In this document: positions 50,884 through 60,232 of the stretch, one piece after another | Numbering within the stretch: the first letter of the stretch is position 1 | Layout: each line of letters starts with the position of its first letter | From: Haladaptatus sp. QDMS2 | GTDB lineage: Archaea > Halobacteriota > Halobacteria > Halobacteriales > Halococcaceae | Direction: 5' to 3' | Assembly (NCBI RefSeq): GCF_029338295.1 | Contig: NZ_CP119791.1 | Coordinates: 682,001 to 746,000, forward strand | DNA: 64,000 nucleotides | The notes under the pieces: model-generated | What the model was told of the DNA's origin: nothing | The model's database searches: none | Seen by the model: only the letters and a program-made list of their open reading frames with translations | Made by a program: the position numbers and the translations under genes

Positions 50884-52053
50884 ATGGCACGAGCAAGCAT
50901 CGTGGGAGCCGGCATGACGAAGTTCGGCGTCCACGAGGAAACCTTACCTGAACTCTTCTCCGAAGCAGCCCTTCCAGCGATGGACGACGCCGGTGTCGGA
51001 GCCGGAGACGTAGACGCATTCTATCTCGGCAACGCGATGGGCGGACAGACAGAAAACGACACGCACCTCGCGCCGACGCTCGCCTCGCACGTCGGCATCG
51101 CGGGCGTTCCGTGTCAGCGCTTCGAGGACGCGTGTGCGACCTCTTCGAACGCCTTCAAACACGCCGTCCAGGACGTGGAGTCCGGACTCCACGACGTGGT
51201 CCTCGTCGGCGGGGTCGAACGCTGTACCCCTGAGACGGGCCTCGGCACCGGCGAGATGACGCGCATCTTCGCCTCCGCCAGTCACCGCCAGTACGAACAA
51301 CCGACGGGGCTCACCTTCCCCGGCGTGTTCGCGCTTCTGACGAAACGACACATGTTCGAGTACGGCACGACCGAGGAGCAACTGGCCGCCGTCGCCGTCA
51401 AGAACCACGCTCACGGTGCGCTCAACCCGCGCGCACACTTCGGCCGAGACATCACCGTCGAGGACGTCGTCGACTCGCCTATCATCGCCGACCCGTTCCA
51501 CCTGATGGACTGCTGTCCATTCTCCGACGGCGCGAGCGCGGTCATCGTCGTCTCCGACGACCTCGCAGCGAGTTTCGACGCAGAACCCGTGGACGTGACC
51601 GGCGTCGGCCACGGCACGGACATCGTTCCGCTCTCCGACAAACCCGACCTCCCGGCCACGATGTCGGCCCGGCGGGCCGCACAGCAGGCCTACAAGCAGG
51701 CGGGTATCACGGCCGATGACGTAGACTTCGCCGAAGTCCACGACTGCTTCACCGGCGCGGAGGTCATGGCCTCCGAGGCACTCGGCCTGTTCGAGGACGG
51801 ACAGGGAGGCCCGGCTGCGGCAGAGGGACGCACTCGCATTGACGGCGACATGCCAATCAACCCGAGTGGCGGCCTGAAAGCGAAGGGCCACCCGATTGGG
51901 GCGACTGGCACGGCACAGATCGTCGAACTCGTCGAACAACTCCGCGGCGACGCTGGCGACCGGCAAATCGAAGATGTCGAAACGGGTATCGCCCACAACC
52001 TCGGTGGCGACGCCGGTACCACGCTCGTCTCGGTCCTGGAGGTGCGCGCATGA
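50884..52053 (+). CDS. Thiolase-family acyl-CoA acetyltransferase (SCP-2-like)
   Basis: The 389-residue protein begins MARASIVGAGMTKFGVHEET, a thiolase start. The nucleophile cysteine is at residue 84 in FEDACATSSNAFKHAV, a histidine is in FAEVHDCFTGAEVMA and the C-terminal region NPSGGLKAKGHPIGATGTA carries the second catalytic histidine. The last motif HNLGGDAGTTLVSVL differs from the classic thiolase CxGxG. Such archaeal thiolases work with HMG-CoA synthase and a DUF35 partner in the mevalonate pathway; the partner gene overlaps here by four bases. Confidence 0.9.
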   Translation: MARASIVGAGMTKFGVHEETLPELFSEAALPAMDDAGVGAGDVDAFYLGNAMGGQTENDTHLAPTLASHVGIAGVPCQRFEDACATSSNAFKHAVQDVESGLHDVVLVGGVERCTPETGLGTGEMTRIFASASHRQYEQPTGLTFPGVFALLTKRHMFEYGTTEEQLAAVAVKNHAHGALNPRAHFGRDITVEDVVDSPIIADPFHLMDCCPFSDGASAVIVVSDDLAASFDAEPVDVTGVGHGTDIVPLSDKPDLPATMSARRAAQQAYKQAGITADDVDFAEVHDCFTGAEVMASEALGLFEDGQGGPAAAEGRTRIDGDMPINPSGGLKAKGHPIGATGTAQIVELVEQLRGDAGDRQIEDVETGIAHNLGGDAGTTLVSVLEVRA

Positions 52054-56310: not shown

Positions 56311-56354
56311 GACAGGCCGGTACGTTTAATACCGCGACGAAGGGCCGTATGGGT

Positions 56355-56540
56355 ATGAGTGGACGACCGCTCGACGTCCTCGAGGCGTCGTTAGGGGAGG
56401 AAGTCACCGTTCGCCTGAAAGACGGCGAGGTGTTCACCGGCGAGCTTGCCGGCTACGACCAGCATATGAATCTCGTGGTTGAGTCGGATGAAGACACAAC
56501 CATTATACGCGGCGATAACGTCGTCACGATTACTCCATGA
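56355..56540 (+). CDS. Lsm (Sm-like) archaeal RNA-binding protein
   Basis: The 61-residue protein starts [20 protein letters not shown] and carries the Sm1 motif ([20 protein letters not shown]) and Sm2 motif ([13 protein letters not shown]). Archaeal Lsm proteins form seven-membered rings that bind U-rich RNA. It overlaps the L37e gene by four bases (ATGA), an order conserved in archaea. Confidence 0.95.
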
Positions 56541-56710
56541 CTGGTGCAGGCACTCCAAGCCAGGGTAAGAAGAACAAGACGACGCACGTAAAGTGTCGTC
56601 GCTGCGGGAACAAGTCCTACCACATCAAGAAGAAGGTCTGTGCGTCCTGCGGCTTCGGGAAAACGGCAAAGCGCCGTGAGTACGCCTGGCAGTCGAAAGC
56701 CGGCGAATAG
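56537..56710 (+). CDS. rpl37e: Ribosomal protein L37e (eL37)
   Basis: Read directly: 57 residues starting [20 protein letters not shown]. It has the eL37 zinc finger (CRRCG and CASCGFG, about residues 20-41) and the conserved [12 protein letters not shown] tail. It is a component of the large ribosomal subunit. It shares a transcript with lsm and is followed by two strong hairpins. Confidence 0.95.
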
Positions 56711-56723
56711 ACGCGACGAACGT

Positions 56724-56860: not shown

Positions 56861-56882
56861 AATATACACGAACGTGTATATT
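56861..56882. promoter_or_regulatory. Perfect palindrome upstream of purF
   Basis: AATATACACG, spacer AA, CGTGTATATT is a perfect ten-base inverted repeat. The right arm contains a TATA-like TGTATATT. It lies about 70 bases before the purF ATG. Its length and symmetry suggest an operator for a dimeric regulator, plausibly of purine synthesis. Confidence 0.6.
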
Positions 56883-56921: not shown

Positions 56922-56928
56922 GTTTTTA
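56922..56928 (+). promoter_or_regulatory. Second TATA-like box before purF
   Basis: TTTTTAG is centred about 28 bases before ATG 56953, which would give a leaderless purF mRNA with the palindrome upstream of the promoter. Confidence 0.45.
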
Positions 56929-56952: not shown

Positions 56953-58407
56953 ATGGCAGATGGGCGGGATTCCCCACACACCCAATACGGCTTGACCGAA
57001 AAGTGCGGCGTCGTCGGCATCTCGCTGGCCGACCGGGCCGCCGCTCGACCCCTCTACTACTCCCTGTACGCACTCCAGCACCGCGGCCAGGAGTCTGCGG
57101 GCATCGTGACTCACGACGGCTTCCAGCAGTACAGCCACGTCGAGATGGGCCTCGTCGGCGACGCCTTTACGCTTTCAGACCTCTCGGGCCTCCACGGGCG
57201 CGTCGGTATCGGTCACGTTCGCTACCCGACGGCGGGCAGCGTCGATTCGAGTTGTGCCCAGCCCTTTTCGGTCTCGTTCAAGAGCGGGTCGCTCGGCCTC
57301 GCCCACAACGGCAATCTGGTAAACGCAGACCAAATTCGCGAAGAACTCGAAGGCCAGGGCCACGCCTTTACCTCCGACGGCGACACCGAGGTCATCGCCC
57401 ACGACCTCGCGCGAAACCTCTTAGACGGCGACCTGATTCGAGCCGTGAAGAAGACCATGAACCGCATCCACGGGTCGTACGCACTCACCATCATGCACGA
57501 CGACACGGTGATGGGCGTCCGTGACCCGGAGGGGAATCGCCCACTCGTCCTCGGCAAACTCGAAGACGGCTACGTGCTGGCCTCCGAAAGCGCGGCCATC
57601 GACACGCTGGACGGCGAACTCGTCCGCGACGTTCGACCGGGCGAACTCATCGTCCTCGCCGAAGACGGGTCCGAGTACGACTCCTACCAACTCGTCGAAC
57701 AGGAGAACACGGCACACTGCTTTTTCGAATACGTCTACTTCGCCCGCCCGGATTCGGTCATCGACGGCAAACTCGTCTACGAGGTGCGTCGGGAACTCGG
57801 GCGCAAACTCTGGGAGGAGAGCGGCATCGAGACGGACGTCGTCATGCCCGTGCCCGACTCCGGCCGCGCGTTCGCCTCCGGCTACGCGGACGCCGCTGGC
57901 GACGGCGTCGAGTTCGCAGAAGGCCTGATGAAGAATCGCTACGTCGGGCGGACGTTTATCATGCCGACACAGGACGAACGCGAGCGAGCAGTCCGACTCA
58001 AATTGAACCCCATCAAGTCCACCGTCGAGGGCAAGACGGTCACCCTCATCGACGACAGTATCGTCCGGGGGACGACCTCGAACCAACTCGTCCAGTTGCT
58101 CAAAGACGCTGGCGCGACGGAGGTCCACATGCGCATCGGCGCACCCGCCATCATCGCGCCGTGTTACATGGGTATCAACATGGCTACTCGCGAGGAACTC
58201 ATCGCCGCCGACAAGACGACGGCGGAGATTCGCGACGTCATCAACGCCGATAGCCTCTCCTATCTCTCCATCGACGCAATTGCGGAGACGCTCGACAAAG
58301 AGCGCCTCGACCTCTGTCTCGGCTGTGTCACTGGAGAGTATCCGTACGATATCGACGGTGAAGAGACCGACCGGAACGTCGCCAGACCGGTGCTGTCGGA
58401 CGATTGA
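56953..58407 (+). CDS. purF: Amidophosphoribosyltransferase
   Basis: The 484-residue protein starts at ATG 56953. Seventeen residues precede the catalytic cysteine of the glutaminase domain in EKCGVVGISLADRAAA, consistent with a propeptide removed to expose Cys, as in the Bacillus-type enzyme. HRGQESAGIV and GHVRYPTAGS are glutaminase motifs; the PRPP loop is TLIDDSIVRGTTSN near residue 365. Cysteines in NTAHCFF, APCYMG and CLGC are placed for a [4Fe-4S] cluster. It catalyses the first committed step of purine synthesis. The palindrome upstream is a likely control site. Confidence 0.96.
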   Translation: MADGRDSPHTQYGLTEKCGVVGISLADRAAARPLYYSLYALQHRGQESAGIVTHDGFQQYSHVEMGLVGDAFTLSDLSGLHGRVGIGHVRYPTAGSVDSSCAQPFSVSFKSGSLGLAHNGNLVNADQIREELEGQGHAFTSDGDTEVIAHDLARNLLDGDLIRAVKKTMNRIHGSYALTIMHDDTVMGVRDPEGNRPLVLGKLEDGYVLASESAAIDTLDGELVRDVRPGELIVLAEDGSEYDSYQLVEQENTAHCFFEYVYFARPDSVIDGKLVYEVRRELGRKLWEESGIETDVVMPVPDSGRAFASGYADAAGDGVEFAEGLMKNRYVGRTFIMPTQDERERAVRLKLNPIKSTVEGKTVTLIDDSIVRGTTSNQLVQLLKDAGATEVHMRIGAPAIIAPCYMGINMATREELIAADKTTAEIRDVINADSLSYLSIDAIAETLDKERLDLCLGCVTGEYPYDIDGEETDRNVARPVLSDD

Positions 58408-58414
58408 ACGTCCG

Positions 58415-58975
58415 TCAGAAGATGATGTAGAGCAGCAGGTAGACGCCGATTCCCATCGAGAACGACACGAGCCAGAGCGCCGCGGCGACCCGGCCGACGC
58501 GCTTGTGGTTCGATTTCGGAATCTCGTTGATGGGGCGCGTCACCGCCGTCAGTACCACGTAGTAGAGCAGCGGGATGCAGACGATGGCGAACACCATGTG
58601 GACGGCGAGAAACGGGTAGTAGAGGTAGAGTTTTACCGTCTCTGGACCCGCAAAGCTGGTCGTCCCGACGGAGGCGATGCGATAGAGATAGAGTAGCAGG
58701 AACAGGGCGAACAGGCCGAGCGCCGTGAGCATGGCTGCGCGGTGTTTCAGAATCTGTCCCTGTCGAATCCAGCGCCATCCCTGGACGATGGTGAGGATGG
58801 CGACGAAGCTGATGGCGGCGTTCGCGTGGGGAATTGCGTCGTAAACCCATGCTGGTGCGCGTGGCAGGACGCCTGCTGGAATCGCGCCGAGGACGGCCCC
58901 GAACACGAGCGCCAGCGAGATGGCCGTGAGCAGGCCGGTAAGGGCTGGCACACGGTCTCTGGTGAGGACCTCCAT
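58415..58975 (-). CDS. DUF420-family membrane protein
   Basis: The 186-residue protein has five membrane segments, with LPRAPAWVYDAIPHANAAIS, GWRWIRQGQILKHRAAMLTA and VKLYLYYPFLAVHMVFAIVC followed by INEIPKSNHKRVGRVAAALW. The histidines in PHANA, KHRA, VHM and NHKR sit at helix ends, as in DUF420 proteins, some of which assist cytochrome-oxidase assembly. It converges with purF after seven bases. Confidence 0.9.
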   Translation of the reverse strand: MEVLTRDRVPALTGLLTAISLALVFGAVLGAIPAGVLPRAPAWVYDAIPHANAAISFVAILTIVQGWRWIRQGQILKHRAAMLTALGLFALFLLLYLYRIASVGTTSFAGPETVKLYLYYPFLAVHMVFAIVCIPLLYYVVLTAVTRPINEIPKSNHKRVGRVAAALWLVSFSMGIGVYLLLYIIF

Positions 58976-59083
58976 GCGTCTTCTTGCGCTTGCGGACGGA
59001 TAGCCGTTACTCGTTGCTTTCAGCCGACGGCGCGATTTAACTCAGTTATAACCATCATCGTGTCGCGCCACCTATACGAGCAG

Positions 59084-60232
59084 ATGACGCTACGCCGCCG
59101 CCACTTCCTCGTGACTGCTGGACTGCTCTCTCTTTCAGGCTGCTCCGTCACCCAGCCGGAACCGACCACGACCACGCGCACGGGAGACGACGAACCGACG
59201 ACCACGACCACGACGCAGACGAGCACCCCCACAGCGACTCCAACGGAGACCCCCACCCCGACGGAAACCGAAACGCCGACCGAAACCCCCACCGAGACAG
59301 AAACGCCGACTGAGACGCCCGTCGAGACACCAGCAGAAAACGAAGACGCACGAGCAGCCCTCACTCGCGCCGACTTCCACGTCGCCGAGGCCGTCGAGAT
59401 TTACAGCGACTTCGGGAACGGCGGGTTGATTCTCGGCGTGACCGGCGCGACCGAGGGATTCTCCTGGACGCGCGTCGCCAACAAGGTCCGCGAATCGTGG
59501 GACGAACTCGACACCGCGGACGCACTCGGTTCGGACGCCCAGCGCGAGCGCAGCGCACAGCTTCGTGACGTTGGCGAGTTCCTCCGCCTCGCAGCGCGGT
59601 GTCAGGACCGCCTCGTCGTCGCCTATCAGGAGACGGTCCGGGCGACCGACGGGCTTTACGCAGCCGACAATTTCGAGTTTACGGCGGGCCTCAACCGCGC
59701 CTCGGATGCGAGGACCAGCGCGACGAACATCCTCGAACGGATTCGCGAGGACACAGATCCCGAGAACACCCGTGCGACGGAGGCGCTCTCTATCTCCGAG
59801 TACGAGCAGAAACTCGCCCAGTTCGAAGACGAACTCACGGCGAATGCGGCGCTCGCCGACCTGCTCCGCGACCTCGACACGGCACTCGGGATCTACGAGG
59901 AGGCGGTTTCCGCGCTGTTCGCGACAGAGTACGCCACTGCGATGGAGGACTTCGAGGAGGTCATCGGCGAACTCGACGTGCTCATCGAGGATTTCGCGGA
60001 CCTCGATCGCCCACGGGCCTACGACTCGCTCGTCTCCGAGCTGGAAGCCGCCACGTCGGTCTTACAGGACGCAGCAGAAGACCTGCGCGACAGCGCGATT
60101 GCCGGCGACGAAGACGACGACGCCACCCGCGACGACGCCCTCGAGGACGCGAGAGCGCGCCTCATGGCGAACGCAACGGTCGCCGAAATGGCACTCGCGG
60201 AAGCCGTCGTGGACGGCGAATTCAGCGCCTGA
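59084..60232 (+). CDS. Secreted lipoprotein with Thr/Glu/Pro-rich linker and helical domain
   Basis: The 382-residue protein starts at ATG 59084 (MTLRRRHFLVTAGLLSLSGC). Arg-Arg plus the lipobox LSLSGC (Cys about residue 20) mark a Tat lipoprotein. Residues about 25-85 form a TxTPTETPT-type repeat linker, a mucin-like spacer. The rest (about 90-382) is almost entirely helical and acidic, possibly a four-helix-bundle or coiled-coil domain. The function is unknown. Confidence 0.78.
   Translation: MTLRRRHFLVTAGLLSLSGCSVTQPEPTTTTRTGDDEPTTTTTTQTSTPTATPTETPTPTETETPTETPTETETPTETPVETPAENEDARAALTRADFHVAEAVEIYSDFGNGGLILGVTGATEGFSWTRVANKVRESWDELDTADALGSDAQRERSAQLRDVGEFLRLAARCQDRLVVAYQETVRATDGLYAADNFEFTAGLNRASDARTSATNILERIREDTDPENTRATEALSISEYEQKLAQFEDELTANAALADLLRDLDTALGIYEEAVSALFATEYATAMEDFEEVIGELDVLIEDFADLDRPRAYDSLVSELEAATSVLQDAAEDLRDSAIAGDEDDDATRDDALEDARARLMANATVAEMALAEAVVDGEFSA

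Follow-up and report, generated by a model that had tools for sequence, protein, structure and literature searches.

A palindrome upstream of purF in Haladaptatus sp. QDMS2 is a candidate operator of a haloarchaeal purine regulon with a putative phosphoribosyltransferase-like reader

Results and Discussion

We analyzed a window of 64,000 nucleotides (the whole stretch under study) from the genome of Haladaptatus sp. QDMS2. Within it, a palindrome precedes purF, the gene of amidophosphoribosyltransferase, which is the first enzyme of purine synthesis. Sequence comparisons suggest, with a probability that we put at about 85%, that this palindrome is the operator of a purine regulon and that it would be read by a protein combining a helix-turn-helix and a phosphoribosyltransferase domain (here, HTH-PRT). 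Purine synthesis is among the best-studied bacterial regulons; for the missing haloarchaeal purine regulator, candidates for both the operator and the protein are now offered. Table 1 gives the features concerned.

Table 1 Features of the putative purine regulon in Haladaptatus sp. QDMS2 (window positions, except for the HTH-PRT gene)
Feature	Position	Strand	Basis or remark
Putative palindromic operator	56861-56882	.	Core 18-mer TATACACGAACGTGTATA at 56863-56880 is the best match to the regulon motif
Probable TATA element TTTTTA, purF promoter	56923-56928	+	27.5 bases before the ATG; GG(G)TTTTTA conserved in most relatives
purF, amidophosphoribosyltransferase, likely target gene	56953-58407	+	ORF; TIGR01134, 538.7 bits, cut-off 350 (NCBIfam)
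HTH-PRT gene	G000:C1:2562548-2563261	minus	NCBIfam name, adenine phosphoribosyltransferase NF006328

The palindrome and the purF promoter

The palindrome lies within the 241-bp gap between the gene of an L37e-like small ribosomal protein (end at 56711) and the purF ATG, and it is made up of two arms around a central AA, AATATACACG-AA-CGTGTATATT. It had been predicted to be a perfect palindrome of 22 bases; the arms, 10 bp each, are indeed perfect, but the central AA is not self-complementary, so that the element is a 20/22 inverted repeat and not a strict 22-mer. The exact sequence is present in a single copy within the window. Its length alone is at the chance level, since the window contains two perfect inverted repeats with arms of at least 10 and a spacer of up to 8, while ten first-order shuffles gave 0 to 3, and about one such repeat is expected per window. 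Length was accordingly dropped as evidence of function, and the significance of the palindrome comes from the recurrence of the site before other purine genes. Apart from the purF palindrome, the window has a single perfect repeat of this kind (arms of 10, short spacer), a 20-base perfect palindrome at 51174-51193.

The center of the palindrome is 54 bp upstream of the TATA-like TTTTTA of purF, whose spacing probably fits a leaderless haloarchaeal promoter. The original prediction had placed the palindrome upstream of a second TATA box near purF, and this element, in its leaderless position, agrees with that description. Because purF has a TATA element there, a role as functional TATA box is improbable for the TATA-like segment within the palindrome. 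Alternatively, purF may start at an in-frame TTG (56932). A second, weak site 42 to 43 bp downstream at purF was plausible by eye, but we rejected it, as the position profile had no peak.

The region directly upstream of purF (56349-56711) holds an Sm-like (LSm) gene along with the L37e-like ribosomal gene, and in several relatives (loci L012, L017, L021, and L035) the LSm gene is likewise found upstream of purF. Downstream of purF (58742-60232) there is an ORF whose start region resembles that of a lipoprotein and which contains long Thr/Pro/Glu repeats (TPTETPTETE...).

Recurrence of the site before purine genes

The core motif of the regulon is TATnCACG-NN-CGTGnATA. When up to 3 mismatches were allowed, TATACACGNNCGTGTATA was found at 7 places in the 3.88-Mb genome, against 3 for the reversed control. 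The best position weight matrix (PWM) scores in this genome belonged to purF (32.1, the highest among all sites), the divergent purS-purQ/purU promoter (29.5), purL (20.4), and purC (17.3). The last three are the kind of further copies before purine genes that had been proposed as a check on the purF palindrome. The remaining matches (L005-L007 and L177-L182 among them) scored 12.7 at most and, as read, are not located before purine genes; more degenerate sites (for instance, at purD, purH, or folD) may lie beyond the reach of this mismatch-limited search.

Among 41 relatives, 29 sites were found, mostly at purine genes, versus 3 reversed-control sites. The genes beside them were purF, purS-Q/purU, purL, purK-E, purD, folD, purB/purN-H, and that of an NCS2 permease. 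Across 145 genomes of the order, there were 99 near-exact copies in 61 genomes versus 1 for the reversed control, with sites also before guaB and hpt/pbuX. We read 60 near-exact sites that were outside the motif-training set: 52 have a reference purine-set gene at most 450 bp downstream and, with 4 of the other 8 preceding guaB, hpt/pbuX, pbuX, and pyrB, a total of 56 out of 60 are located before nucleotide genes. Ten genomes (Haloferax, Halorubrum, Natrialba, Halorussus, and others) gave 41 sites at 2 mismatches versus 3 for the control, and 11 of the 19 sites read in this set are before purine-set genes. The pyrB (aspartate carbamoyltransferase) site, a near-exact one at 2001-2018 of locus L225 (G037:C17:3380-7397), is found ca. 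66 bp before the gene. It is a hint that pyrimidine synthesis may be cross-regulated in some lineages.

The position of the site is fixed for each target. The distance from its center to the start codon is 49.5 bp for purL (6 out of 6), 58.5 to 59.5 for purS, 62.5 for purN-H, 63.5 to 64.5 for purD, ca. 82 for folD, and 81.5 for purF in Haladaptatus sp. QDMS2. The purL, purS, purD, and purN-H sets share an A+T peak at -31 to -24 from the start, from which it follows that the putative operator is regularly upstream of BRE/TATA; at purL, it directly abuts a GAAA BRE-like element. Strict helical phasing between site and TATA was considered and rejected, as the distances (ca. 21, 33 to 36, and 54 bp), though suggestive, scatter too widely, and the value of 54 comes from the purF of this genome alone.

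A chance inverted repeat without function would explain the unexceptional length of the palindrome; given the order-wide recurrence before purine genes at fixed positions and the 99 copies versus a single control match, the sequence evidence, as far as it reaches, refutes this explanation, which we regard as scarcely credible. The palindrome is thus supported as the probable operator of a haloarchaeal purine regulon, conserved across species and enriched over the control. The genes preceded by the site take in the majority of those for purine synthesis, together with folD (one-carbon supply) and genes for the uptake or salvage of purines. The new purine regulon that the original prediction had envisaged gains support from the copies before several purine genes, both in this genome and throughout the order.

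A candidate regulator

A scan for phosphoribosyltransferases in the genome of Haladaptatus sp. QDMS2 retrieved HTH-PRT, a protein of 238 amino acids with an N-terminal helix-turn-helix, whose gene adjoins that of an NCS2-family (purine-type) permease. It scored 347 bits against NF006328 (PRK08558), above the curated cut-off of 184, although the name of this family, adenine phosphoribosyltransferase, rests on annotation. Against purR_Bsub (TIGR01743), it scored 44.5 bits, below the family cut-off of 258.7. Pfam gave weak HTH_3/HTH_31 matches together with Pribosyltran, and the N-terminal winged-helix domain of PurR was not found in this search.

A profile of 14 HTH-PRT orthologues had Bacillus subtilis PurR as its best solved relative (E value, 5e-12), followed by an adenine phosphoribosyltransferase (E value, 2e-6). 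The PurR match takes in the GYV segment ahead of the phosphoribosyltransferase fold and the PRPP loop. This loop, VLVVDDLIRSGET, is invariant in the 14 orthologues and was aligned to VLIIDDFMKAGGT of PurR (E value of ca. 5e-12). The helix-turn-helix segment LPAGDLNRYVNGHVLP, the putative recognition region, is likewise invariant over the 14 genomes. A Foldseek search with the AlphaFold model (mean pLDDT, 81) placed PurR among the top matches; other phosphoribosyltransferases ranked equally, and therefore the fold alone does not discriminate. The gene is also carried by Haloferax volcanii. The HTH-PRT family is perhaps not confined to haloarchaea, as Sulfolobus acidocaldarius, a control genome, scores above the NF006328 cut-off.

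Co-occurrence of protein and site

The purF promoter had the site in 14 of 15 genomes with HTH-PRT versus 0 of 15 genomes without the protein; the exception (G019) has HTH-PRT and no purF site. Across the 145 genomes, near-exact sites were found in 61 of 114 carriers of HTH-PRT versus 0 of 31 noncarriers (Fisher, 3e-9, a value that overstates independence, as the genomes are related). Joint gains or losses of protein and site are limited to a few clades (within families f1, f4, and f7). The near-exact search found no site in the other 53 of the 114 carriers, which may have more degenerate ones.

We also scanned 80 HTH-PRT loci with a motif trained on purine-set sites alone. There were 24 matches at most 100 bp before the HTH-PRT gene, 78 just after it (that is, before the NCS2 permease), and 13 elsewhere, while the reversed control gave 5 matches in 984 kb. 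In Haladaptatus sp. QDMS2 itself, neither the HTH-PRT gene nor that of its permease showed a clear site (best score, 7.8). Clear tandem sites upstream of the permease, with a spacing of 52 or 61 bp, are confined to some of the genomes. For instance, the Halorubrum permease promoter has two regulon-like sites 52 bp apart (L079, L084, L089, and L098), the first of which overlaps the HTH-PRT stop codon; the spacing is 61 bp in other genera. In the position profile of the HTH-PRT promoter, the highest value (z, 3.3) is at an offset of 42, but this coincides with the TATA region.

Together, these data point strongly to HTH-PRT as the candidate reader of the operator. The co-occurrence test would be satisfied equally by any regulator distributed like HTH-PRT, and in that case the regulon would be real, another transcription factor would read the site, and HTH-PRT would be a salvage enzyme within the regulon. 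Its score above the adenine phosphoribosyltransferase cut-off agrees with such a role, and sites near its gene would also be expected of a mere target, since it lies beside a purine-type permease. We nevertheless consider this unlikely, given an N-terminal helix-turn-helix with an invariant putative recognition region, a best solved relative that is a purine repressor and not an enzyme, and near-exact sites that were never seen without HTH-PRT in the 145 genomes.

The site could also be bound by the paralogous regulator GfcR, in a joint sugar and purine regulon. GfcR, known from Haloferax volcanii and Haloarcula hispanica, has the same helix-turn-helix plus phosphoribosyltransferase architecture; its role as a haloarchaeal regulator is proven, and it acts as an activator (PMC11519228). 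It differs from HTH-PRT in its family (NF045507), which is orotate phosphoribosyltransferase-like, and in its targets, which belong to sugar catabolism. Moreover, its distribution dissociates from that of the motif: GfcR is found in most motif-free genomes and was absent at the search threshold in seven motif-bearing ones (G028, G052, G056, G080, G132, G137, and G144). We rejected it as the reader of the site, a role that now seems very improbable. The genome of Haladaptatus sp. QDMS2 has two GfcR-type genes, L036 and L038 (C1:1871573-1872217 and C1:638313-638930), while most relatives have one.

The site of TrmB, TACT-N7/8-GAGTA, differs from the palindrome motif, and direct control of the purine genes by TrmB through the palindrome is, in our estimation, more improbable still. 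Weak binding of TrmB near purine genes was detected in Halobacterium salinarum (PMC4540570), but the same authors concluded that the purine genes need a TrmB-independent regulator (PMC3794607) and that the role of TrmB is indirect.

Possible mechanism and sign of regulation

If HTH-PRT reads the operator, its XRE-like helix-turn-helix would bind, as a dimer, the two half-sites TATnCACG, and its PurR-like phosphoribosyltransferase domain would sense PRPP and/or a purine nucleotide competing for the same pocket. HTH-PRT might recruit TBP/TFB when purines are short, and we give this activator role somewhat better than even odds; repression when purines are plentiful may be credited with a little less than an even chance. 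Two points tilt the balance slightly toward activation, namely the placement of the sites ahead of the promoter elements (at purL, right against the BRE) and the precedent of the paralogue GfcR, an activator. The word repressor, used in the original prediction, is not established, and a site upstream of BRE/TATA would suit an activator at least equally well. The position does not settle the sign, because repression by B. subtilis PurR is exerted from boxes immediately upstream of -35 (PMC8789054).

In H. salinarum, the purine genes are anticorrelated with purine levels, falling as purines rise, and their high expression in the trmB mutant goes along with low PRPP (PMC4540570). If the same system operates there, PRPP alone would be a less suitable signal than a purine nucleotide or base.

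More tentatively, the widespread archaeal HTH-PRT family could be a purine master regulator that pairs an XRE-type helix-turn-helix with a PurR-like sensor of PRPP or purine nucleotides and acts as an upstream activator, possibly also as an enzyme; we would rate this broader proposal as possible but short of probable. The finding suggests a transcription-factor role for a large family that is annotated as adenine phosphoribosyltransferase, and the presence of HTH-PRT in the genetic model Haloferax volcanii makes the question open to direct testing.

Comparison with known purine regulators

For H. salinarum, Todor et al. inferred a TrmB-independent purine regulator already present in the cell, and no PurR homologue was recognized (PMC3794607, PMC4540570). 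Their regulator was proposed without a site or a protein, whereas here there is a candidate for both. We found no description of the motif, or of HTH-PRT as a regulator, in the open-access literature searched.

The system resembles that of B. subtilis PurR in having a purine regulon with overlapping target genes and a phosphoribosyltransferase-fold protein (here, the candidate reader), and the PurR structures 1p4a, 1o57, and 7rmw are the closest solved ones to HTH-PRT. The PurBoxes of B. subtilis are also inverted repeats just upstream of the core promoter and have a CGAA core, compared to CG(AA)CG here (PMC8789054). However, the haloarchaeal site is a single palindrome of 18 to 22 bp with CACG/CGTG half-sites in an archaeal promoter, while PurR uses paired 14-bp boxes 16 to 17 bp apart. 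Instead of the winged helix of PurR, the N-terminal region of HTH-PRT gave HTH_3-like (XRE-type) matches alone, and this pairing with a PurR-like phosphoribosyltransferase domain is distinct from the bacterial one. Along similar lines, the PurR of Lactococcus lactis is a PurR-family activator of purine genes that responds to PRPP (PMC3547956), but it is bacterial, recognizes the PurBox AWWWCCGAACWWT, and has a DNA-binding domain other than that of HTH-PRT.
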